DNA from: Anoxybacter fermentans
GTDB taxonomy: Bacteria > Bacillota > Halanaerobiia > DY22613
DNA: 64,000 bases
Reading direction: 5' to 3'
NCBI RefSeq assembly: GCF_003991135.1
Contig: NZ_CP016379.1
Location: forward strand, 1,550,001 to 1,614,000
Shown here: piece after piece, positions 4,904 through 63,351 of the stretch
Layout: the number at the start of each line of letters is the position of its first letter
Position numbering within the stretch: the first letter of the stretch is position 1
The notes under the pieces: generated by a model
Seen by the model: the letters and a program-made list of their open reading frames with translations, nothing else
Database searches by the model: none
Told to the model about the DNA's origin: nothing
Position numbers and translations under genes: made by a program

Positions 4904-5515
4904 CTAACTTTCTTTAATTCTATTTTTCCAATCAGGAACCAGTACACCACCTGATAAAATTAACTTAAGTCCTTCTTCAATGGTTATATTAAGATAAATT
5001 ACATCCTCTTTTGGGACTAAAACTAACATTCCGGATGTTGGGTTGGGAGTTGTAGGTATAAAGATGTTCATTACTTCTACCCCTGTTCTTTCCTGTACTT
5101 CTCTAATTCCATGGCCAGTAACAAACCCCAGCTGATAAACCCCTTTACGGGGATACTCAATCATAACCACCTGTTTAAAAGCAGTAGTTGTAGTCTGGTT
5201 AAAGACAGTATCAATAATCTGCTTTACTGTGATATATATCTGTTTCACTACAGGGATTCTTACCATCAACCATTCACTTAAAGCAATCAACCTTCGTCCC
5301 AATACATTTTTAGCAAAAATACCGGCGAAGATAATCAGAGCCAGACTTAAAACCACACCCAGACCATAAATCTCTCGCCCAAATATTATTTGAATTACCG
5401 GTCGTACTACCCTATCGAGAGTGGAAAAAATAGCAAAAATAATATAAACGGTTGCAACTATAGGAAGTAATACAATTAAGCCTGTAATAAAGTAATTTCG
5501 AATTTTTCTAAGCAT
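4904..5515 (-). CDS. DUF502 family membrane protein
   Basis: A 203-residue protein with two N-terminal membrane segments (about residues 8-30 and 48-68), then a soluble region with motifs of the DUF502 family: RIPVVKQIYITVKQIIDTV, VMIEYPRKGVYQLGFVTG and IFIPTTPNPTSGMLVLVP. The function is not known. The ribosome site GGGGGAGCAGG precedes the ATG. It lies between the CorC-type gene and the DUF3048 lipoprotein, both on the same strand. Confidence 0.82.
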   Translation of the reverse strand: MLRKIRNYFITGLIVLLPIVATVYIIFAIFSTLDRVVRPVIQIIFGREIYGLGVVLSLALIIFAGIFAKNVLGRRLIALSEWLMVRIPVVKQIYITVKQIIDTVFNQTTTTAFKQVVMIEYPRKGVYQLGFVTGHGIREVQERTGVEVMNIFIPTTPNPTSGMLVLVPKEDVIYLNITIEEGLKLILSGGVLVPDWKNRIKES

Positions 5516-5536
5516 TATTCCTGCTCCCCCTCGACT

Positions 5537-6820
5537 TCAATTAAATGGTAAAATGTTGATATGTAATTTTAAAATTCGATGACCTACCATCTCCTTAACA
5601 GTAATTTTAAGTTTATCATATTCTAAAACCTCTCCTGGAACGGGAACATGCCCTAAAATGCTTAAAACCAGTCCACCCAAAGTATCATAATCCTCAGCCG
5701 GTAATGATAAATTTAAAAGATCATTCAATTCATCTACAGACATTCGGGCATCTACAACCAGTTCTTTTTCACTAATAAAATGGTAGTCCACATCTTCAAC
5801 ATCATATTCATCCTGAATATCACCAACAATCTCCTCAATTAAATCTTCAATAGTAACAATCCCTGCAGTTCCACCATATTCATCTAAAACAATAGCCATA
5901 TGTATCCTTTTATTTCTTAATTCAGATAAAAGTTGATTTACCTTTTTGCTTTCAGGTACAAAATATGCAGTCCGCATCAAATCCTTAATAGTTACATTCC
6001 CAAATTCTTCTTTAACAAATTTCAATAAATCCTTTGCATATAACACTCCAACAATATTATCTATTGTTTTACGAAAAACAGGAATTCTGGAATGCCCTTT
6101 TGTAATAATTAAGTCAACTGCTTCTGCTAAAGGTGTATTCTCTTCAACACCAATAATATCAATTCTTGGTACCATTACCTCTCTTACAAGTGTATCATCA
6201 AATTCAAAGATAGAATGGATCATCTCTCTTTCTTCTTCTTCAATGACCCCTTCCTTTTCTCCTACATTTACAAATCGTATAATCTCATCTTCAGTAATAA
6301 ACGGCTGTTTTTTATTGGGGTCACCTCCTAAAAGTCTGATGGTGATATTGGTAATTTTTATCAGAATATTAACCAGTGGATTAAAAAACATAGAGACAAA
6401 CAATAAATAAGGTGCAGACCAATAAGCTACTCTCTCCGAATTTTGATTAGCAAAAGTTTTGGGAGTAATCTCACCAAAAACCAGAACTAAAATAGTCATC
6501 CCAAAAGTAGCAATCCATGGCCCTCTAATGCCAAAGAGTTCCAGAGCCAGAGTAGTGGCCAGGGCAGAGCCGGCAATATTAACTAAATTATTTCCTATAA
6601 GAATAGTAGTCAGAAGCTTTACCGGACTTTTTATCAACTTATCTACTTTAGCGGCCCGTTCATCTCCCCTTAGCATATCATGCCGGACCTTAACTTTGTT
6701 TAGTGACATTAAAGCCGTTTCTGAACCGGAAAAAAAACCAGACAGTAAGATAAAAATCCCCAAAAACCCCAATTCAACAAATTGAATTGGTTTCATTTGC
6801 CTGAGAAATCCTCCCCTCAT
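5537..6820 (-). CDS. CorC/HlyC-type CNNM-CBS membrane protein
   Basis: A 427-residue protein with the domain order DUF21/CNNM transmembrane region (about 10-190, starting FSGSETALMSLNKVK), a CBS pair (about 210-335, with VMVPRIDI and RIPVFRKTIDNIVGVLYAKDLL), then the CorC_HlyC domain at the C-terminus. The family is linked to Mg2+/Co2+ export or homeostasis. The ATG at 6820 has no ribosome site in front; GGGGAGG lies just inside it, so the second ATG at 6796 (MKPIQFVEL) may be the true start. It follows the DgkA-PAP2 gene by 11 bases. Confidence 0.87.
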   Translation of the reverse strand: MRGGFLRQMKPIQFVELGFLGIFILLSGFFSGSETALMSLNKVKVRHDMLRGDERAAKVDKLIKSPVKLLTTILIGNNLVNIAGSALATTLALELFGIRGPWIATFGMTILVLVFGEITPKTFANQNSERVAYWSAPYLLFVSMFFNPLVNILIKITNITIRLLGGDPNKKQPFITEDEIIRFVNVGEKEGVIEEEEREMIHSIFEFDDTLVREVMVPRIDIIGVEENTPLAEAVDLIITKGHSRIPVFRKTIDNIVGVLYAKDLLKFVKEEFGNVTIKDLMRTAYFVPESKKVNQLLSELRNKRIHMAIVLDEYGGTAGIVTIEDLIEEIVGDIQDEYDVEDVDYHFISEKELVVDARMSVDELNDLLNLSLPAEDYDTLGGLVLSILGHVPVPGEVLEYDKLKITVKEMVGHRILKLHINILPFN

Positions 6821-14180: not shown

Positions 14181-14317
14181 TTATAAACACTGCAGGTAAT
14201 CTTTTGTCACTTTCACCACCATACCTGTAATATTTCCTGTAGCAAAAAGTACTACACTTCTAATGAGTAATCTCCCTTCATCCTCAGGATTACCGTATTT
14301 TTTGTAGAATCCAAGAA
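14181..14317 (-). pseudogene. Remnant of a small gene cut by LPE copy B
   Basis: A minus-strand frame of about 45 codons ends with TAA at 14181-14183 and runs upstream straight into the LPE copy B boundary at 14317. It reads ILGFYKKYGNPEDEG, then RLLIRSVVLFATGNITGMV and TKDYLQCL, which looks protein-like but is not recognised. If copy B and one AGAA repeat are removed, the frame continues about ten more codons (LLFLEKLI) before a stop. No start codon or ribosome site is seen, so this is probably a decayed gene. Confidence 0.35.
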
Positions 14318-14540
14318 TGATTTTACTGCAAAAAGCTAATTTTTCACTTCAAAAGAAATTTTTCGAACCATCTAAAGTTCGATTTCAGTCGAAATAAGGC
14401 ACACTAATCAATGAGCCCTCCTGGCCCTTGATTAGTTCATCACATCCTCATATGAGGCCTTATTTCGACTGAAATCTCACTAAGATTGTTTAACGAAAAA
14501 TTTCTATGTCGCTCAAAATTAGCTTTTTGCAGTTTAATCA
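14318..14540 (+). repeat. LPE palindromic element, copy B (long class)
   Basis: 223 bp, from TGATTTTACTGC to GCAGTTTAATCA, flanked on both sides by the 4-bp direct repeat AGAA. The inner stem TTTCAGTCGAAATAAGGC pairs perfectly with GCCTTATTTCGACTGAAA. Between these are two hairpins, built from CTAATCAA/TTGATTAG and from TCATCACA/TCATATGAG. Confidence 0.93.
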
Positions 14541-37144: not shown

Positions 37145-37329
37145 ATAAAAAACTGCAAAAAGCTAATTTTAAGCGCTATTGAAATTTTTCTTTAAACCAT
37201 CTTATTAAGATTGAAAAGAATAGTCTCATCACAGGATATAATGAGCTAATCAAGTCACTGAAATCGAACATTAGATGGTTCGAAAAATTTCTTTACGAAG
37301 CGAAAAATTAGCTTTTTACAGTAAAATCA
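37145..37329 (-). repeat. LPE palindromic element, copy G (short class, reversed)
   Basis: About 185 bp in reverse orientation, from AAACTGCAAAAAGC to GCTTTTTACAGTAAAATCA. The left tip is eroded. It ends one base before the holA stop codon. Confidence 0.9.
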
Positions 37330-37330
37330 T

Positions 37331-38353
37331 CTAATTTGATTTCAAATTCTTCATATCAATCAATGCCAACTGTAAAGCCATCTTTTCAGGATACTTCCCG
37401 GTCACAATATCATAATTAGCCTGAAGCATCCGCTCTAAAGCCAGTTCCAGTTCAGTCATGGTAAAGTTTCGGGCCTGCTTATAGCACTTTTTAATCGGAT
37501 ACGGATGCTGGCCCAACCGTTTAGCAGTATCTTCAGGTGGAAATCCCTTCTCAGACATCTCCTTAGAAAACATAATCAAATGGAGCTGACGGATAAACAT
37601 TTTAAGAATCATAAATAATGATTCTCCTTCCCGCTCCATATCCTCCAAAATCAGCAAAGCTTTCTTAATCTGCCGATTTCCTACTGCATCTACCAGATCA
37701 AAGATAATATTTTCCTTTAAAATAGCATCTTTACTAATTACAGCTTTAATATCATCCAATGTAACGAACTCTTTATCTCCAACATAAATAACAACCTTTT
37801 CAATCTCTGATTTAAGTCGCTGCAGATTGTTATGAAAATGTTCTTCTAAAAAATTTATTCCATTTTTGGCAACCTTTTTTCCTTCTTTTGCAAATTGCTG
37901 CTCAATCCACATATCAAGATTCTGATACTTTAATGGTTCAAACTCAATCCATTCTCCAATCTCCTTAATCAGTTTAACAAAACTGAGACGTCCATCCGGC
38001 TTATTTTTTGAGATTAGCAAAAGAATTGTATTTTTTGGAAAATCTTTGAAAAGTTTAGTCAATATTCTCTCATCTTTTTTATGTATCAGACGTTCCTTGC
38101 AACGGGCCACTACAATCCTGTATGGAGAGAGCATACTTACAGTATGACAGACCTCATATAACTTATTGTCAAAATCCTCTTCGTTCTCCTCATTTATATA
38201 GCTTAACATAAAATCTTTCATTCCAGGGTCTACAAACCGTTTAATAAACTTACTGACAAACTCATCTATTAGATAGGGTTCATTCCCGAACAAAAGATAA
38301 ACTGGCTTCAAATCTTCCAACTTTGCTTTTAGTATTCTTTCAGTCCACTCCAT
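37331..38353 (-). CDS. holA: DNA polymerase III delta subunit
   Basis: A 340-residue clamp-loader subunit (HolA/YqeN). It opens with KPVYLLFGNEPYLIDEFVSKF, then DPGMKDFMLSYINEENEED, NTILLLISKNKPDGR, LLEDMEREGESLFMILKMFI and HPYPIKKCYKQARNFT near the end, as usual for the family. It opens the beta clamp in the replisome. The stop (TAG) lies one base from LPE copy G. The comEC...holA-rpsT neighbourhood is conserved, though accessory genes now separate comEC. Confidence 0.93.
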   Translation of the reverse strand: MEWTERILKAKLEDLKPVYLLFGNEPYLIDEFVSKFIKRFVDPGMKDFMLSYINEENEEDFDNKLYEVCHTVSMLSPYRIVVARCKERLIHKKDERILTKLFKDFPKNTILLLISKNKPDGRLSFVKLIKEIGEWIEFEPLKYQNLDMWIEQQFAKEGKKVAKNGINFLEEHFHNNLQRLKSEIEKVVIYVGDKEFVTLDDIKAVISKDAILKENIIFDLVDAVGNRQIKKALLILEDMEREGESLFMILKMFIRQLHLIMFSKEMSEKGFPPEDTAKRLGQHPYPIKKCYKQARNFTMTELELALERMLQANYDIVTGKYPEKMALQLALIDMKNLKSN

Positions 38354-41064: not shown

Positions 41065-41254
41065 AGATTAAACTGCAAAAAGCTAATTTTGAGCATCAGA
41101 GAAATTTTTCGTTAAATCATCTTAGCGAAATGAAAGGAGAAATAAGGCCTCATATGAGGATGTGATGAGCTAATCAAGTCACTGAAATCGAACTTTAGAT
41201 GGTTCGAAAAATTTCTTTATAAAGCGAAAAATTAGCTTTTTTGCAGTAAAGTCA
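41065..41254 (-). repeat. LPE palindromic element, copy H (reversed)
   Basis: About 190 bp in reverse orientation, from AGATTAAACTGC to GCAGTAAAGTCA. It inserts between the ArsP-like gene and the thioredoxin-like gene and provides the TGA stop of the ArsP-like gene with its terminal TCA. It has one inner hairpin (CTCATATGAGGATGTGATGAG). No direct repeat is found. Confidence 0.92.
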
Positions 41255-42947: not shown

Positions 42948-42978
42948 AGAACATCACGACAAAGGGAGGTGAAATTAA

Positions 42979-43200
42979 TTGGCAGGTGGTCAAAGAACTA
43001 ACACTCTTGTTAACCCATTAGCTGCAAAAGCTATGGAACAATTCAAATATGAAGTAGCTCAGGAATTGGGTATTCAAGTTCCCCAAAGCGGTTACTGGGG
43101 TGAAATGACTACCCGTGATACCGGTGCTATTGGGGGCCATATGGTTCGTAAAATGGTTGAAGCTTACGAAAGCAGATTAGCTGGAAGTACTAACCAGTAA
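42979..43200 (+). CDS. Small acid-soluble spore protein, alpha/beta type, copy 1
   Basis: A 73-residue SASP: NPLAAKAMEQFKYEVAQELG, GYWGEMTTRDTGAIGGHMVRKMVE. The GPR cleavage-site region (FKYEVAQELG) and the GAIGGHMVRKM DNA-binding motif are intact. It coats spore DNA and protects it from UV and heat. The start is TTG at 42979 behind AAAGGGAGGTG; copy 2 has ATG at the same place. It is nearly identical to copy 2 but its tail is four residues shorter. It is on the plus strand, opposite to its neighbours. Confidence 0.96.
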   Translation: MAGGQRTNTLVNPLAAKAMEQFKYEVAQELGIQVPQSGYWGEMTTRDTGAIGGHMVRKMVEAYESRLAGSTNQ

Positions 43201-43243: not shown

Positions 43244-43331
43244 ATTTTAGTTGCATAGAGCTAATCAAACCTTTAATAAAAATTTTTTATTACCAGTCTT
43301 TATTATAATAAATTTGACCATTTTTAATACA

Positions 43332-43551
43332 TGATTTTGCTGCAAAAAGCTAATTTTTTGCTTCAAAAAGAAATTTTTCGAACCATCTAAAGTCCGATTT
43401 CAATCGAAATAAGGCACACTAATCAATGGGTCATCTTGGCCCTTAATTAGTTCATCACATCCTCATATGAGGCCATTCTCTTCAATCTCACTAAGATGGT
43501 TTAACGAAAAATTTCAATAGCGCTCAAAATTAGCTTTTTGTAGTTTAATCA
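43332..43551 (+). repeat. LPE palindromic element, copy I (mosaic)
   Basis: 220 bp, from TGATTTTGCTGC to GTAGTTTAATCA, flanked by the perfect 4-bp repeat TACA. The left half is long-class (GAAATAAGGCACACTAATCAA), the right half short-class (GAGGCCATTCTCTTCAATCTCAC). The paralogous SASP 2 region at 54040-54110 has the same sequence without the element. Confidence 0.94.
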
Positions 43552-43605
43552 TACATTAAAATTTAATTTTAATTTCCTCACCTGATAAGCCATTTTAGTA
43601 TCCAT

Positions 43606-46474: not shown

Positions 46475-46678
46475 ATATAACACTCCTTTTTTAAAGTTCA
46501 ATATTCGGATATGCTTTGAAAATATGTAATTACATAAATATACCTGCCTTCTACTAATTACTGCTGGTTTTAGTATAGCATTTGTTACAGCACTAATCAA
46601 GTACAGCAATTCATCTTATCCATACATTTCCTTTAAAAGCAAAAGACTTCTTATCGAATTAGGTTGAAAATTCATTGA

Positions 46679-46901
46679 TGATTTTATTGCAAAAAGCTAA
46701 TTTTTCGCTTCAAAAGAAATTTTTCGAACCACCTAAAGTTCGATTTCAGTTGAAATAAGGCATACTAATCAATGGAGCCTCCTGACCCTTGATTAGCTCA
46801 TCACATCCTGTGATGAGGCTTTATTTCAACTGAAATCTCACTAAGATAGTTTAACGAAAAATTTCTATGGCGCTCAAAATTAGCTTTTTGCAATTTAATC
46901 A
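46679..46901 (+). repeat. LPE palindromic element, copy J (long class)
   Basis: 223 bp, from TGATTTTATTGC to GCAATTTAATCA, flanked by the perfect 4-bp repeat TTGA. The inner stem is TTTCAGTTGAAATAA with TTATTTCAACTGAAA: compared with copy B both strands changed so that pairing is kept. The right end supplies the tenI stop codon. It lies between pabA and tenI, in the 285-base gap. Confidence 0.94.
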
Positions 46902-47488
46902 TTGATTTTATCTTTTATTTTTTTTGCAGATAAGTAAGGTTCATTTGATGCCATTATATAAGACATAACTGCAATTCCATCGGCACCTGCAGATAAAACT
47001 TTTTTTACATTTTCAGGATTTATGCCACCCAGTGCTATTACAGGAATTTTAACTTGAGACTTTATATCTTTAATCAGTTCGATTCCTTTAGGCCTTAATC
47101 CTTTTTTACAATCCGTTTCAAATATGTGACTAGCCAGTATATAGCTTGCTCCGTGTTTCTCTGAAAGTATCGCTTCTTTTAAACTGTGCACTGATACACC
47201 TAAAAGTCCTTTAAATTCAAATTTTTCTTTCATAAATCTATCAAAACTTGTATGGAAACCTGATGCATTTATGTTTTTTGCTACATCTAAATTTCCGTTA
47301 ACTATTAATGGTATGTTATAAGCATCAGCGATGTTTTTCAATTTAATTGCAATTGGAAGCAGTTCCTCGTAAGATAAATCCTTTTCCCTTAATAAAACAG
47401 CATCTACTCCACCTTTAATGGCATTTTCTACTACATCGTAAAAGTTGTCTTTTTCTATAATTTTTCTATTTGTTATAAGATAAAGCAC
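46895..47488 (-). CDS. tenI: TenI-like thiazole tautomerase
   Basis: A 197-residue TIM-barrel protein related to ThiE: YLITNRKII, LLREKDLSYEELL, LIVNGNLDVAKNINASGFH, LGVSVHSLKEA and IALGGINPENVKKVL. HIFETDCKKGLRPKGIE resembles the TenI motif around its active-site His. Because a clear ThiE is encoded nearby, this one is taken as the tautomerase that converts the thiazole intermediate, rather than a second phosphate synthase. The GTG start lies 1 base after the thiC stop. Its stop codon lies inside LPE copy J. Confidence 0.75.
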   Translation of the reverse strand: MLYLITNRKIIEKDNFYDVVENAIKGGVDAVLLREKDLSYEELLPIAIKLKNIADAYNIPLIVNGNLDVAKNINASGFHTSFDRFMKEKFEFKGLLGVSVHSLKEAILSEKHGASYILASHIFETDCKKGLRPKGIELIKDIKSQVKIPVIALGGINPENVKKVLSAGADGIAVMSYIMASNEPYLSAKKIKDKIND

Positions 47489-52903: not shown

Positions 52904-52963
52904 GTCGAAATAAGGCACACTAATCAATATTTCGCTCAAAATTAGCTTTTTACAGTTTAATCA
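52904..52963 (+). repeat. LPE palindromic element, copy K (internal deletion remnant)
   Basis: 60 bp: GTCGAAATAAGGCACACTAA from the middle of the long class joined to TTTCGCTCAAAATTAGC and the right end ACAGTTTAATCA. Most of the element, including the left end, is gone. Confidence 0.85.
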
Positions 52964-53020
52964 TAAATAAAAATGGGAAGCAATTTTCTGCTCCCCTCAT
53001 AACCAAACCGGTATATAAAC

Positions 53021-53054
53021 AAAAAAATCACAAATCCCTAGAGAATTTGTGATA
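53021..53054 (-). terminator. Terminator controlled by the TPP riboswitch
   Basis: On the minus strand ATCACAAATT, a 6-8 base loop and ATTTGTGATTTTTTT form a 9-bp stem with seven T residues, 14 bases downstream of the riboswitch and upstream of thiS. A further GGGAAGCA/TGCTCCC hairpin lies at 52973-52996. Confidence 0.85.
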
Positions 53055-53067
53055 AACTAAAACACAA

Positions 53068-53160
53068 ACTTCCCTACGGTAGCATTACCTACATCAGGTT
53101 ATGAGGGTCAGAGATAACATCTCTTTCTCAGCCTATCAATATAGGCTCCCCTAGTTGTGC
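53068..53160 (-). promoter_or_regulatory. TPP riboswitch (thi box)
   Basis: On the minus strand it reads ACTAGGGGAGCC, GGCTGAGA, a variable arm, GACCC, ACCTGATG..GGTAATGC and CGTAGGGAAG, i.e. all conserved parts of the TPP aptamer in order. When TPP is bound, transcription should end at the terminator below. It controls thiS-thiF-thiG-thiH-thiE-thiC-tenI. Confidence 0.96.
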
Positions 53161-53190
53161 AAATATTTAATTTTAAATGATTATATAAGA

Positions 53191-53219
53191 ATTATAACAT
53201 ATGTTTTGTTTTTTTACAA
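53191..53219 (-). promoter_or_regulatory. Sigma-A promoter of the thiamine operon
   Basis: TTGTAA (53214-53219), 17 bases, TATAAT (53191-53196) on the minus strand, about 30 bases upstream of the riboswitch. Confidence 0.75.
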
Positions 53220-53350
53220 GTATAGATAGGGTAAATTTACAAACCCTTAAATTAGAGCTATACACTCCACATGCGTGGTATTCATTATACCGGGTTTGTT
53301 AATTTTGAGATAAACCTGGCATATTGGTTGTTATAACATATTAGCAAATA

Positions 53351-53530
53351 CCTGCAAAAAGTTAATTTTTCGCTTTAAAGAAATTTTTCGAACCATCTAA
53401 ATTCAGTCGAAATAAGGCATACTAATCCATGGATCCTCCTGACTCATGATTAGCTTATTACCTCCTCTGAGACCATTCTTTTCAATCTCACTAAGATGAC
53501 ACTCAAAATTAGCTTTTTGCAGCTTAATCA
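53351..53530 (+). repeat. LPE palindromic element, copy L (degenerate)
   Basis: About 180 bp from CTGCAAAAAGTTAATTTTTCG to GCAGCTTAATCA. Its left tip, part of the outer right stem and other segments are lost, and many stem positions no longer pair. It looks like an old copy. The stretch from the TPP leader to SASP 2 otherwise has no gene. Confidence 0.85.
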
Positions 53531-53640
53531 CATATAAGATTTTATAGCATCTAATAAAGACCTAAACTGCTTTAAACAGAAATTTTAATTTAATTCTTCC
53601 TGATCTGACAAACTGTTTACAGGACTAGTCAAGATTGTCA

Positions 53641-53670: not shown

Positions 53671-53703
53671 GAAATACAACAAGATGAAAGGAGGTGAAAT
53701 TAA

Positions 53704-53937
53704 ATGGCAGGTGGTCAAAGAACTAATACTCTCGTTAACCCATTAGCTGCAAAAGCTATGGAACAATTCAAGTACGAAGTAGCTCAGGAACTTGGTATTC
53801 AGGTTCCTCAAAGTGGCTACTGGGGTGAAATGACTACTCGTGATACCGGTGCTATTGGTGGTCATATGGTTCGTAAGATGGTTGAAGCTTACGAAAGCCA
53901 ATTGGCTCAGGGAGTTACCAGAGGTACTAACCAATAA
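53704..53937 (+). CDS. Small acid-soluble spore protein, alpha/beta type, copy 2
   Basis: A 77-residue SASP identical to copy 1 through residue 65 (NPLAAKAMEQFKYEVAQELG, MTTRDTGAIGGHMVRKMVEA) and differing only in the tail (QLAQGVTRGTNQ). The DNA differs at several third positions, so the duplication is not very recent, yet the protein is under strong selection. The start is ATG with AAAGGAGGTG. Promoter and terminator are duplicated as well. Confidence 0.96.
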   Translation: MAGGQRTNTLVNPLAAKAMEQFKYEVAQELGIQVPQSGYWGEMTTRDTGAIGGHMVRKMVEAYESQLAQGVTRGTNQ

Positions 53938-58027: not shown

Positions 58028-59278
58028 TTACTGGGAATTACCTGAAAAATCCTTGCCGACAATCACCAGTATATCAAATTCTTTAAAACTCTCATCAATC
58101 GCATAAGCAGATTCAGCTAATGGTATAATCTGACCATTAACCAATTCAGCCAATGCCTTAATTTCATCAGTTACTTCTTTGGTATAAATCACCAATGTAT
58201 TTTCATAATTATAATGGTCAGCATTTGCAATTTTATCTACTTTAAAACCATGAAGTTCTATATCTCTGGAAATTTTCGCAGCAGCTCCGTGGATTCCGTT
58301 ACCATTAAAAACAGCAACCCGATACTTGCTATTTGCAATATATTCTTTACTGACAATTAGATCATTTACCAATTTCCTGGTACCTTCAGGTTCATGGATA
58401 AAATATGATATCCCATCTATATATTTAGATTCACCGGGAATCCGGGCACTTTTAATATTTTCACTTTTAATATCTTTCATCAATTTAGCAAGATTCATCA
58501 TATCTTTATATGACATATTAGTACTGATACTGTTATTGAACTGCTGAATTAGTTTAGGCACCTTTAAAATCAGTTCAGGACTCAAAAACTGTTTGATAGC
58601 TGCATTAATAAACTTCTGCTGTCGAGCAATTCTGCCTAAATCAGCATAGACTGGTTCACGATAACGGAGATATTTAACGGCTTTTTCACCATCTAAAATC
58701 TGTCTACCTTTAGGAATATCAATAACAAGACCTGCAGCATTATCAACATATTTCATATCTTCTTCTACATCAATTTCAATTCCACCTAAAGTATCAATTA
58801 TTCCGGCAACTCCATCAAAATTGGTAGCAATATAATAATTCACAGGTATACCCAAAAACTGACTAATGGTATCCATTGCCAATTGACCACCGCCTTCAGC
58901 AAAAGCAGCATTTACCTTAGTATGCTTCTCATGGCCCGGAATCAGAACCCGGGTATCCCGTGGGATACTCAAGATTCCTACAGCTTTTTCTTTTATATCA
59001 AAACTGGCTAACATAAGAGTATCAGACCTTGGCCTACCATTTAATTCAGAATCATATCCAATTAAGAGAATATTGACTTTTGAAAGAGCAATCGGTTGGT
59101 TATTCTTAACGGTAAAAGTAATTTTTTCACCATAAAAAAAGTCATATAAAAAAACTCCAAAAAGACCTCCAATTATAATAAAAACAAATAGAACAACTAA
59201 AAGAAATTTCTTTAAAAATTTATATTTCTTATAATGACATTCTGTACTGTTGTACAGCCGTTCGTCTCTATTATTCAT
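58028..59278 (-). CDS. LytR-CpsA-Psr family protein with LytR_C domain
   Basis: A 416-residue membrane-anchored protein. One helix (about 22-45) is followed by the LCP domain (NILLIGYDSELNGRPRSDTL, ILSIPRDTRVLIPGHEKHTK, VNAAFAEGGGQLAMDTISQF, YLRYREPVYADLGRIARQQK) and a C-terminal LytR_C domain from about residue 320 (VAVFNGNGIHGAAAKISRDI). LCP enzymes attach wall polymers to peptidoglycan. The start overlaps the yqeK stop as ATGA. Confidence 0.92.
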   Translation of the reverse strand: MNNRDERLYNSTECHYKKYKFLKKFLLVVLFVFIIIGGLFGVFLYDFFYGEKITFTVKNNQPIALSKVNILLIGYDSELNGRPRSDTLMLASFDIKEKAVGILSIPRDTRVLIPGHEKHTKVNAAFAEGGGQLAMDTISQFLGIPVNYYIATNFDGVAGIIDTLGGIEIDVEEDMKYVDNAAGLVIDIPKGRQILDGEKAVKYLRYREPVYADLGRIARQQKFINAAIKQFLSPELILKVPKLIQQFNNSISTNMSYKDMMNLAKLMKDIKSENIKSARIPGESKYIDGISYFIHEPEGTRKLVNDLIVSKEYIANSKYRVAVFNGNGIHGAAAKISRDIELHGFKVDKIANADHYNYENTLVIYTKEVTDEIKALAELVNGQIIPLAESAYAIDESFKEFDILVIVGKDFSGNSQ

Positions 59279-59847
59279 CTCCTTTCACCCCTTCTAAGCA
59301 GTGCATTTCTCATTTCAACTGTACGCAAGTGTATCCGATTATTCCGATTGATCTCATAAATGATAGTCCGACCACAGGCGAGGATAATTGCCTGATCAAG
59401 ATTGACAAAAGCCAATTTCCTCACTTCTTCAATTCCTGGACAATCTCTACCTGGCTCAATATAATCAGCCAGATAAATAATTTTGTCAAGAAGGGTCATA
59501 TCAGGCGCCCCTGTTGTATGATAACGAATAGCCCGTAAAACTGCCGGATCCTGAATACCAAAATCTTCCCTGGCTATAATAGCACCTACAGGTCCATGTA
59601 GCAATGGTTCCACTTCTTTTTCCATTTCATCTACCACTATATCAGAACCTTCCAGTCTTCTCAAGAGGTTAAATTTGGATAGACATTTTGCACAATCATG
59701 GAGTAATCCAGCCAACCTGGCCTGTTCAACTGAAGCTCCATAATGCTCTGCTAATTTAACAGCCGTCTCTTCTACACCAAGAGTGTGCTGATAACGGTTA
59801 TAATCTAACATTTGTTTTAATCGTTGGCGAATTATAGCATAATCCAT
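59275..59847 (-). CDS. yqeK: HD-domain nucleotidase YqeK
   Basis: A 190-residue HD protein: YQHTLGVEETAVKLAEHYG, LAGLLHDCAKCLSKF with the HD pair, EPLLHGPVGAIIAREDFGI, AIRYHTTGAPDMTLLDKIIY and LADYIEPGRDCPG. The family hydrolyses Ap4A symmetrically to ADP. It sits between nadD and the LCP gene, as usual in Firmicutes. Confidence 0.94.
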   Translation of the reverse strand: MDYAIIRQRLKQMLDYNRYQHTLGVEETAVKLAEHYGASVEQARLAGLLHDCAKCLSKFNLLRRLEGSDIVVDEMEKEVEPLLHGPVGAIIAREDFGIQDPAVLRAIRYHTTGAPDMTLLDKIIYLADYIEPGRDCPGIEEVRKLAFVNLDQAIILACGRTIIYEINRNNRIHLRTVEMRNALLRRGERR

Positions 59848-59861
59848 TTGGACACGACTCC

Positions 59862-60470
59862 TTACTCCTTTAAATAAAGTTGGTATTTTTTAATATAAGC
59901 TTCTACTGCAGGATGAACTTGATATTTTATTGTTTTACCTGCTTTAATTCGATTGCGAATATCCGTAGATGAAATGCCGATTTCTGGCATCTCTAAAAAG
60001 AAGATTCGATCTCTGTATTTCTGGTAAAATTCTTTCTCCAATCTTTCAAATGAATAACCCGGACGAACTGCAGCAATAAAATAGACAATCTGCATTAGTT
60101 CATTAGGTGATTTCCAGGTATCTATCTCTAAAATGGTATCTGCACCGGTAATAAAATATATCTGATATTCAGGATAACGTTCCCGAAAATACTTTACCGT
60201 ATCAATGGTGTAAGACGAACCTGGTCGCTTCATTTCCACCTTAGATACGGTAAAATACGGGTTATCCATTGTAGCTAAAAGGGTCATCTCATATCTCATC
60301 TCTACAGGGGTGATCTTTTTATTAAACTTGTGAGGCGGATTAGCAGATGGTACAAAGATCACCTGTTCTAATTTAAATTGGTCAAGAGCACAATCTGCTA
60401 ACATGAGATGGCCATAATGAATGGGATCAAAAGTCCCTCCCATAATTCCAATCGCCTGCTCTTCACTCAT
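59862..60470 (-). CDS. nadD: Nicotinate-nucleotide adenylyltransferase NadD
   Basis: About 202 residues. GIMGGTFDPIHYGHLMLADC is the nucleotidyltransferase motif, followed by FVPSANPPHKFNKKITPVEM, YFITGADTILEIDTWKSPNE, AAVRPGYS and the end motif GISSTDIRNRIKAGKTIKYQ. It makes deamido-NAD in NAD synthesis. The ATG at 60470 behind GGGAGGC is used; a TTG two codons upstream is also open. Confidence 0.95.
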   Translation of the reverse strand: MSEEQAIGIMGGTFDPIHYGHLMLADCALDQFKLEQVIFVPSANPPHKFNKKITPVEMRYEMTLLATMDNPYFTVSKVEMKRPGSSYTIDTVKYFRERYPEYQIYFITGADTILEIDTWKSPNELMQIVYFIAAVRPGYSFERLEKEFYQKYRDRIFFLEMPEIGISSTDIRNRIKAGKTIKYQVHPAVEAYIKKYQLYLKE

Positions 60471-60563
60471 GTTCAAAAGCCTCCCGATCTTTTTAAGAAT
60501 TCTGTATAACCACTACATTACATTATACAATAATTTATTCCTTTTAGCAAAAGGGAAAAAGTC

Positions 60564-61315
60564 TTATTTTACTGTAGGAAAATCTCTTTGTAAAATTTCA
60601 AGTGCCTCATCAATCCGCTGTTTTTCGTATAAAACAGGAGCAAAAAGATCATCCATTTCCTTAAACCTTTTTGATATAGTTTTTAGATTAAAATTTTCCG
60701 GATTAATCGATGGTTCTACTTTCTCCCAATAGAGGGGGGTAGAAATAGGCGATTTTCTACCAGGGAGATATGGAATTGTTTTTTCTTTGGCCACAATACC
60801 TTCCATTTCCTGAGCTCTAACGGCTTTAAAAAGTGTTATTCCATCAGAAAAATCTTCAATGATCTGAAAATAATCATGGGGAATTGCAATTTTTCTAAAA
60901 GTTCTAAGTGGTATTCTAAAGGTTCACCAATCAAATCTTTATTATCTAAGGATAGTAAATCAAAAGCAATAAAAGTTGCAGGAAACTTCCGAACTGCCAA
61001 TTTGATTCTAGTTCCATCGATCTTTAAATCACGTTTTAAAATTGCAGCAAAACTGGATTTACCATTAACTAAAACCACCATTTCTCCATCCAATATAGTC
61101 TGACATACCTTGATAAATCGATTTAATTTTTGAAAATCAGGGTAAACATGGATTCAGGGGCGTAATTTGCGATTTTGTAACTGTACCCTATCATCTTCAA
61201 TAAATGCAATAATTTTTACCCCGTCTCACTTTACCTGGAAAAGATGATTCCTGGAATTAAAAGGTTTATCTGTGAAACGGGGTTCCATTGGTTTTAAATA
61301 GCCATATTTTAACAT
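60564..61315 (-). pseudogene. ligD: Decayed LigD (NHEJ DNA ligase-polymerase)
   Basis: Starting at the ATG at 61315 the frame reads MLKYGYLKPMEPRFTDKPF and FQVK-stop-DGVKIIAFIEDD: a TGA at 61226-61228 replaces the Trp right after the catalytic Lys of ligase motif KxDG. A second TGA is at 61154-61156. Then LDGEMVVLVNGKSSFAAILK and FIAFDLLSLDNKDLIGEPLE are clear ligase blocks. Near 60885 the frame shifts; the other frame gives EGIVAKEKTIPYLPGRKSP, then jumps to STPLYWEKVEPSINPENFNL, which fits the end of the LigD polymerase domain. So it has two nonsense changes, a frameshift and an internal deletion. It is non-functional. Confidence 0.8.
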
Positions 61316-61321
61316 AGTTTG

Positions 61322-62114
61322 CTACTTTGCCACCTTTTCAGGTTCTTTTTTGGACTCAGCTTCTTCTTTTTTCCACTCTTTCTGGACGGCTCTTAAGCTG
61401 GCCCTAAGCGCATCCATAAGATCTATACTATTCTGGAATTTCAATTTCTTCTCCTTCAATTTTATGACGGATAATTTTCAGCAGTTCTTATCTGTATTTA
61501 TCAGTATATTTCTTTGGGATAAATTCTGTAGATAAATTGAAAATTAACTCTTTTGCCATAGTCAGTTTATTTTCATGAATTTTGATTTTTTTAATAGATC
61601 TTCTATCCTCAAATCAGCATTATTTCTTACTTCAGCAGGAAAGTACATAGTTTCCAGACAAATTATCCCATTCTATAAAACTCTGCTATAAGCCATGCTT
61701 TCTTTATTACGAATAGTAATCTTAGCTATCGTAACTTTTCAGGTCTCCTTCATTGCCTGACCCAAAAAAATATATGCTTTTTCTCCTCCTTCACTGTGAG
61801 AAAAATAATAACTTTTGCTGTAGTAAATTGGGTCTCAACAAAGTCCACTATATCGATAGTTTTTGTGGAAGCCACCGGAATATTATCAAAATCCTCATCT
61901 CTAAGAATCACATATTTGCCTTTTTCATACTCATTATCCCCTGATAATACTATCATCAGAAACAACTTTATTACACCTGGGGCAGCACTTTTGATATATG
62001 ACAGGCATCATGAAGCTGACGAAACCGTAAACTTTTTTTGGAGGTTGCGACGTACATCTTTATTAAAACATTAACCAATCCAAAACTTATTGAACCTTTC
62101 CAGATACTTCTCAT
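61322..62114 (-). pseudogene. ku: Decayed Ku protein gene (NHEJ)
   Basis: From the ATG at 62114 the frame reads MRSIWKGSISFGLVNVLIKM, FRQLHDACH, a perfect Ku start, and then stops. Another frame gives EYEKGKYVILRDEDFDNIPV, ASTKTIDIVDFV (61750-61965). Further frames keep YSKSYYF, EGGEKAYIFLGQAM, ESMAYSRV and LETMYFPAEVRN, and the end reads SIDLMDALRASLRAVQKEWK, EKVAK. Several frameshifts and stops separate these pieces. Ku binds DNA ends in NHEJ; its partner ligD, 7 bases downstream, is also broken. Confidence 0.82.
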
Positions 62115-62130
62115 CTCTAAACCTCATCCC

Positions 62131-62343
62131 TTAGGCTTCCTTTTTCTTCTGTTTAGCCTTTTCTTCTTCTTTTTTCATCTTTCGAATCCGTTGCGTAATA
62201 AGTCCACCCAATCTTCCTGCCTCTTTGGCACTCAGACCACTCCAACCGTATTTACGTATTTTATCTGCCAAACCAATTTCATGTGCCACTTCCAATTTAA
62301 TCTCCAGTAATGTTAAATCATCTACTAACTTTCCTTTAGACAA
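62131..62343 (-). CDS. Small acid-soluble spore protein, SspF-like
   Basis: A 70-residue protein: LLEIKLEVAHEIGLADKIRK, YGWSGLSAKEAGRLGGLITQ, RIRKMKKEEE. The KLEVAHEIGL block resembles the GPR cleavage region and AKEAGRLGGLITQR the DNA-binding motif, both close to SspF-type alpha/beta SASP. The tail is Lys/Glu-rich. The start is TTG at 62343 behind GGGAGGTGA. A GAATA box and a weaker AAGAATA box 18 bases apart upstream may be a sigma-G promoter. Confidence 0.85.
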   Translation of the reverse strand: MSKGKLVDDLTLLEIKLEVAHEIGLADKIRKYGWSGLSAKEAGRLGGLITQRIRKMKKEEEKAKQKKKEA

Positions 62344-62433
62344 AAAATCACCTCCCTTTTTATCGGTATTCTTTGCAAAAGGAGGTGAGAATATTCCTTC
62401 CTCAGTTCTTTTTGTCTCAAAAATCAGTTCCGG

Positions 62434-63351
62434 TTAACCACTAACCTCCAGATAACTTTTCTCTTCCAGAGAATCATCAAACTTCTCAAGTTTCAAACTT
62501 GTCAGACAGATTCCTCCAAGAATTAATATTCCACCAATCAAAGTAAAAACCTGTGGCTTTTCATGCAAAATCAACCAGGCTAACAATGTTGCTCCTACCG
62601 GTTCTCCCAATATACTGGCTGAAACCACAGAAGCATGCAAATATTTCAAAGCCCAATTAAGTGAAGTATGGCCAATAATAGTTGGCACCAAAGCCAGCAT
62701 CACCATACTAAACCAGGTCAATGAATCATAACCTAAAAGGTGAATCTGGTTAATAAGGATATAAAGAAGCAAAAATAGAGAACAAAATCCATACACTGAT
62801 AAAATATATACTCCCAGGGATAGAGATTTACGCAGATGGCGGCCAACAAGAAAATATCCTGCAGCCATAATTGAACCACCCAGGGCCATTAGATCACCAT
62901 ACAAATTGGTAACACTTAATGACAAATCACCGGCTCCAATCACAAGACTACCAACACAAGCCAGAGCAATCCCGGAGAGTAGAAAAAGACCGGGCTTTTC
63001 TTTTAAAATCAAAGCTGCAGCAACAGCCACAAAAATGGGCTGGGTAGTAACAAAGATTACAGAACTTGCCACACTGGTATGGGCAAAAGATGAAATCCAG
63101 AAGATAAAATGTAAAGAAAGTAATAATCCCCCAAGAACAAGAAGAAAGATTTGTCTTTTAGTAAGAGTTCTAAATTCCTTTCCTCTTTTAGCTATAGTAA
63201 AAGGTGCAAGAATCAAAGTAGCAACACCCATTCGATAAAAGGCAACTACTGCTGGCGGTGCAGAAGCAAGTTTGATAAAAATAGCAGCAAAGGAAACTGC
63301 AGCAACACCAATCACTAAAGCAATATAAGGAGGAATTTTGGGGCGCATCAC
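62434..63351 (-). CDS. DMT-family (EamA) transporter
   Basis: A 305-residue, ten-helix protein with two EamA repeats: YIALVIGVAAVSFAAIFIKL, AFYRMGVATLILAPF, ALGGSIMAAGYFLVGR and GHTSLNWALKYLHASVVSAS, LGEPVGATLLAWLILHEKP. These are drug/metabolite exporters; the substrate cannot be read from sequence. It starts (GTG 63351 or ATG 63348) at the stop of the upstream GNAT gene in TAGTGATG, so translation is probably coupled. Confidence 0.88.
   Translation of the reverse strand: MMRPKIPPYIALVIGVAAVSFAAIFIKLASAPPAVVAFYRMGVATLILAPFTIAKRGKEFRTLTKRQIFLLVLGGLLLSLHFIFWISSFAHTSVASSVIFVTTQPIFVAVAAALILKEKPGLFLLSGIALACVGSLVIGAGDLSLSVTNLYGDLMALGGSIMAAGYFLVGRHLRKSLSLGVYILSVYGFCSLFLLLYILINQIHLLGYDSLTWFSMVMLALVPTIIGHTSLNWALKYLHASVVSASILGEPVGATLLAWLILHEKPQVFTLIGGILILGGICLTSLKLEKFDDSLEEKSYLEVSG

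Follow-up and report, generated by a model that had tools for sequence, protein, structure and literature searches.

Probable decay in place of a ku-ligase-polymerase operon in Anoxybacter fermentans

Bacillus subtilis carries the end-joining proteins Ku (YkoV) and LigD (YkoU), whose genes are reported to be under the control of sigma G and SpoVT and to be switched on in the forespore; deletion of ku/ligD sensitises its spores to DNA damage (PMC3656841). In nonconventional NHEJ, which is described as overrepresented in Firmicutes, the LigD domains reside in separate proteins (Sharda et al. 2020, PMC7719229). The same study describes losses of NHEJ as frequent and the one-step loss of Ku and LigD as the most likely kind.

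The locus described here lies in a window of 64,000 nucleotides, which is the whole stretch of DNA analysed (positions 1550001-1614000 of the Anoxybacter fermentans genome, a single contig of 3557532 bases with a completeness rating of 100%). Between a SASP gene and nadD, an interval of about 1.65 kb has no minus-strand open frame longer than 85 amino acids. At a threshold of 110 amino acids, the longest part of the window without an ORF (60477-62436) includes this interval. The features of the region, in window coordinates, are listed below.

58028..59278, minus strand: intact gene, presumably of the LCP/LytR type, syntenic with the relative described below
59275..59847, minus strand: intact open frame that we take to be a yqeK-like gene, used as a rate control
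59862..60476, minus strand: intact gene downstream of the relics, presumably nadD (Pfam CTP_transf_like)
60564..60755, minus strand: tail of a LigD-type primase-polymerase gene, fused in frame to the ligase relic through a deletion of about 1.2 kb
60756..61315, minus strand: relic of an ATP-dependent DNA ligase gene (LigD-type LIG), with 2 stops (one in KxDG) and 1 frameshift, cut shortly after EGIVAK, which we take to be motif IV
61322..62114, minus strand: ku relic, with the start codon kept, 3 stops and 5 frameshifts
62131..62343, minus strand: intact minor alpha/beta-type SASP gene (Pfam SASP match of 27.8 bits, over the cut-off), lying upstream of ku and called SspF-like after a preliminary description of this DNA
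62434..63351, minus strand: intact EamA transporter gene, present in the relative too, some genes farther from the SASP gene

The Ku profile (PF02735) recognised two pieces of the relic, one over the cut-off (E 3.9e-13) and one below it (E 3.0e-4). The ligase relic matched PF01068 (DNA_ligase_A_M) over the cut-off, with E 1.3e-15 and 58.5 bits, in a match that crosses two stops. For the polymerase tail the Prim-Pol match was below the cut-off (E 5.1e-4), only the last 38 positions of the profile (217-254 of 254) being left.

Only one of the 60 relatives belongs to the same family, a Halothermothrix sp. of a different genus (G001). Its genome contains, on one strand and in this order, a SASP gene, ku (278 aa), a ligase gene (312 aa), a polymerase gene (313 aa), nadD, a yqeK-like gene and an LCP-like gene. 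The intact orthologues that the preliminary description proposed to look for are thus found at the same place and in the same order. The three repair proteins of G001 match the profiles Ku, DNA_ligase_A_M/A_C and LigD_Prim-Pol almost from end to end, the full Ku match scoring 181.9 bits. The ligase and polymerase genes are separate, with 78 bases between them, and do not encode a single-protein LigD. The SASP gene of the window is 82% identical to its G001 counterpart over 62 codons.

Lesions were mapped by frameshift-aware alignment to the intact G001 proteins. The ku relic aligns to residues 1-277 of the 278 of G001 Ku (62114 to 61328; 196 of 260 columns identical), and its stop codon ends at 61322. 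Internal stops begin at 61741 (TGA), 61675 (TAG) and 61490 (TAA), and frameshifts lie near 61997, 61936, 61836, 61591 and 61430, some of them with several residues lost. The ligase relic starts at 61315; its reading frame is interrupted by a TGA at 61228 inside KxDG and by another at 61156, and it shifts at 60898. The relic reaches about residue 187 and then passes straight into the polymerase from residue 247 onwards, the junction being placed to within about one codon. By arithmetic on the G001 coordinates, the deletion amounts to 378 + 78 + 738 = 1194 bases and took the end of the ligase gene and most of the polymerase gene. In the polymerase tail, 35 of 69 aligned columns are identical to the G001 polymerase, a few of these columns lying in the ligase part, before the junction. 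The lesions total five stops, six frameshifts and one large deletion. Functional NHEJ requires open frames and an intact KxDG, and these are absent; both the Ku and the ligase relics are broken.

The alignment agrees with the preliminary description that a ku/ligase locus with stops and frameshifts occupies 60564-62114 (minus strand), and that a nonsense change sits in the KxDG motif. The statement that both genes are recognisable from start to end holds for ku; the end of the ligase gene and most of the polymerase gene are gone. Likewise, the large internal deletion reported for ligD is real, but it spans two genes and not a single ligD gene.

We searched the whole genome for backup copies, with B. 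subtilis as a positive control that was matched in the Ku, ATP-ligase and Prim-Pol searches. The Ku profile found only the relic (in two pieces), the ATP-ligase profile only the relic (in one piece), and the one Prim-Pol match was the tail, below the cut-off; no second Ku, second ATP-dependent ligase or other LigD-type polymerase was found with these profiles. The suggested check for another ku/ligD pair thus gave no second profile match, and classical end joining is probably absent from the Anoxybacter fermentans genome, judged by these searches. An addA-related open frame of 1199 amino acids is present (best piece 354.7 bits against a cut-off of 707.65), and recombinational end processing is probable. 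As a mark of intact recombination addA was uninformative, since the family also matches 13 of 14 control genomes.

We suggest that the common ancestor of Anoxybacter fermentans and G001 would have had a three-gene end-joining operon (ku, a stand-alone LigD-type ligase gene and a stand-alone LigD-type polymerase gene) between sspF and nadD. In the window lineage the operon would have lost its function and be decaying by nonsense changes, small insertions and deletions, and one deletion of about 1.2 kb. With no other copy found and end joining probably absent, we give this reading a probability of about 0.93. Decay in place, as first described, is supported by the synteny with the intact G001 orthologues and by the whole-genome searches, and more modestly by the codon patterns and rates presented below. 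Double-strand breaks would presumably be routed to recombination. We infer a lack of end-joining activity and a reliance on recombination, and relaxed need may have been the cause.

Sequencing or assembly errors could give intact genes a broken look, and the genome is known from one assembly only, single-base insertions and deletions being a common type of error. However, eleven separate lesions and the deletion of about 1.2 kb fall within 1.55 kb while the flanking genes are open, the relic branches are long by ordinary substitutions as well, and the genome is one contig rated as complete; we regard errors as a very improbable explanation. As little weight can be given to partial retention, in which fragments (the ligase piece of 85 aa or the fused ORF of 80 aa, for example) are expressed in another role. 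Open pieces of 71, 85 and 80 amino acids do exist and the ligase-polymerase junction is in frame, but no profile is covered in full by any of the three. The ku sequence remains conserved over much of its length, as would be expected if the genes were functional through stop readthrough and frameshifting. Such recoding would have to deal with all three stop types, at several different kinds of residue, and with six frameshifts, several with residues lost, in genes from which the ligase end and most of the polymerase have gone, and it is the least credible of these explanations. The decay of the operon in the window lineage accounts for the lesions best.

The differences between the ku relic and G001 ku at codon positions 1, 2 and 3 are 0.188, 0.115 and 0.508. 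The amino-acid identity of the relic is 0.754, compared with 0.655 for six functional neighbour genes pooled; taken singly, only the SASP gene (0.823) clearly exceeds it and the EamA gene (0.751) is equal. This codon pattern and the high identity indicate that most of the divergence preceded decay, and selection probably still acted on ku during the greater part of the time after the genera separated. The ligase relic has an identity of 0.608, and its ratio of differences at positions 1 and 2 to those at position 3 is 0.505 versus 0.425 for the pooled neighbours; it shows no excess at position 3, as in a selected gene, beyond that of the neighbours.

Changes specific to each lineage were counted with seven outgroups. 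For ku there were 18-23 in the window lineage and 10-13 in G001, about two to one, and for the ligase 10-15 and 6-11, with a tie for one outgroup; the control genes gave 7-12 and 7-11 (nadD) and 8-12 and 10-15 (yqeK), and the excesses are modest and could be inflated by misaligned letters beside lesions. The window and G001 branch lengths were 0.215 and 0.082 for ku and 0.454 and 0.193 for the ligase. The same program gave 0.20 and 0.34 for nadD and 0.16 and 0.27 for yqeK, the window branch being the shorter in both controls. With IQ-TREE, the lengths were 0.29 and 0.052 for ku and 0.63 and 0.13 for the ligase. Five stops in 446 codons correspond to about 0.09 neutral changes per site since the loss (interval 0.03-0.21), assuming a transition weight of 2 and the G001 codons. 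A decay in place that was late relative to the split of the genera is supported by these comparisons, but modestly. The earlier suggestion of a recent loss with readable remnants stands in this relative sense; a single genome and a single intact relative, of a different genus, give no fine or absolute date.

To relate ku to spore formation, we used 61 genomes (Anoxybacter fermentans, 58 of the class including G001, and 2 of the phylum), several of them incomplete, down to 57%. The Ku profile matched in 10 of the 61 genomes, the relic counted, and one further genome (G039), whose ku holds an assembly gap, was added as ku-bearing by protein search. SpoIVA is present in 29 of the 61 genomes and in 27 of the 59 of the class. 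Within the class, ku was found in 10 of the 27 SpoIVA genomes (8 full matches, 1 gapped and 1 relic) versus 0 of the 32 without SpoIVA (Fisher p 1.3e-4, a descriptive value that ignores kinship). The 17 SpoIVA genomes without ku indicate that absence of ku is common in the spore-formers of the class. A second case of ku decay was considered in G039, where the middle of the gene is missing (L062, about 3510, G039:C152); two N letters at the junction make an assembly gap probable. Weak Ku-like matches in nine other relatives (E 0.003-0.1, 26-39% identity) were taken as chance and not counted.

The preliminary description had also seen a sign of a spore role in the SASP gene beside ku. The adjacency is there, but as support for such a role it is weak. 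We read the nadD loci, including flanks of up to 1.5 kb, in 26 genomes outside the family; G010 gave no match. In 10 of the 26, a SASP gene of this type and nadD are immediate neighbours on one strand and ku is absent between them; these 10 are the full set of genomes from families f5, f8 and f11. No SASP profile match was found beside nadD in the other 14 class and 2 phylum genomes. Nine of the 26 bear ku (7 with full matches and G039 in the class, and G060 in the phylum). The ku-free adjacency includes all 7 class genomes outside the family that have a full Ku match, plus G039, and in those 7 ku is far from nadD or on another contig. Because the SASP gene adjoins nadD without ku elsewhere, the SASP neighbour alone is no sign of a spore role, and the distribution argues better for a spore link than the adjacency does. 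The operon would in this family either have entered between sspF and nadD or, alternatively, have left that site in the other families.

An intrinsic sspF-ku linkage was also considered but not adopted as the starting assumption: a profile of three SASPs, one of them from locus L021 itself, matched only L021 and L028 among 19 ku loci, and in L028 the SASP gene is about 1.7 kb from ku; the 10 of 26 nadD loci with a SASP gene were found with a second profile. At L021, in the G060 genome (of the same phylum only), another SASP gene stands back to back with ku (5240-5422 and 5492-6406). In a crude consensus scan for sigma-G sites, the best score ahead of G001 sspF was 11 of 13, and no site reached 11 in Anoxybacter fermentans. 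Tentatively, and as something we would rather doubt than assume, ku-lig-pol lodged between sspF and nadD could be co-transcribed in the forespore; the window lineage would then have dropped the repair genes and kept sspF and SpoIVA, which would suggest that some spore-formers can do without this spore-linked end joining.

Two layouts of the genes occur in the class. In the family of Anoxybacter fermentans ku-lig-pol run in one direction, versus lig-pol facing ku in 7 of 7 other class loci (L013, 8289-9227 and 7269-8210, compared with L014-L020); the one-direction layout also occurs in L028, outside the class set. The ligase of the family falls beside two other Bacillota MAGs and outside the class. 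The ligase and polymerase genes may have a horizontal origin, but a class clade was not rejected for either (p-AU 0.0785 for the ligase and 0.312 for the polymerase), and long branches are in play.

Elsewhere in the window there is a dispersed element of about 230 bases that forms a long imperfect palindrome, at 37150-37340, 41066-41241, 43324-43562 and 46671-46912, with pieces within 52933-53541 and also at 14317-14540. The copy at 46671-46912 has an RNA fold of -97.3 kcal/mol (z -15.2) and a 70% match to its own reverse strand. Including the query, the element was found at at least 40 genomic places at 90-100% identity, with 40 of 673 candidates scored, and it resembles a MITE or a high-copy structured intergenic repeat. 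A TPP riboswitch aptamer (79 bits) lies at 53054-53162 on the minus strand. A direct repeat, 42951-43182 and 53676-53907, is 90% identical over copies 10.7 kb apart and holds two SASP genes of the alpha/beta type, both of which match the profile strongly.

Bacteria often undergo losses of this sort, and the present one is ordinary in kind, caught in progress; its chief interest lies in remnants that can still be read. Usually the loss of end joining is deduced from genes that are missing. Here a relic, with an intact counterpart at the same site, reveals which way the change went, namely loss and not a failed gain. The relic also shows the route of the loss, through point lesions, small insertions and deletions, and a deletion across two genes. 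The pair of related genomes, one with the intact genes and one with the decayed ones, is a setting for testing what end joining is worth to spores; knowledge of the pathway itself is unchanged. A literature search, with most subscription journals outside its reach, turned up no publication describing a comparable NHEJ pseudogene, and the stem "pseudogen" is absent from the main text of Sharda et al. (PMC7719229).

Like YkoV and YkoU of B. subtilis, the locus would have combined Ku with LIG and POL activities. In B. subtilis LIG and POL form one protein, whereas here, judged from G001, they were two genes, and all are broken in Anoxybacter fermentans. Its separate LigD domains, again judged from G001, resemble the nonconventional NHEJ of Firmicutes. 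The losses of Sharda et al. 2020 (PMC7719229), as that source presents them, were inferred from presence and absence, whereas this locus shows the genes while they decay.
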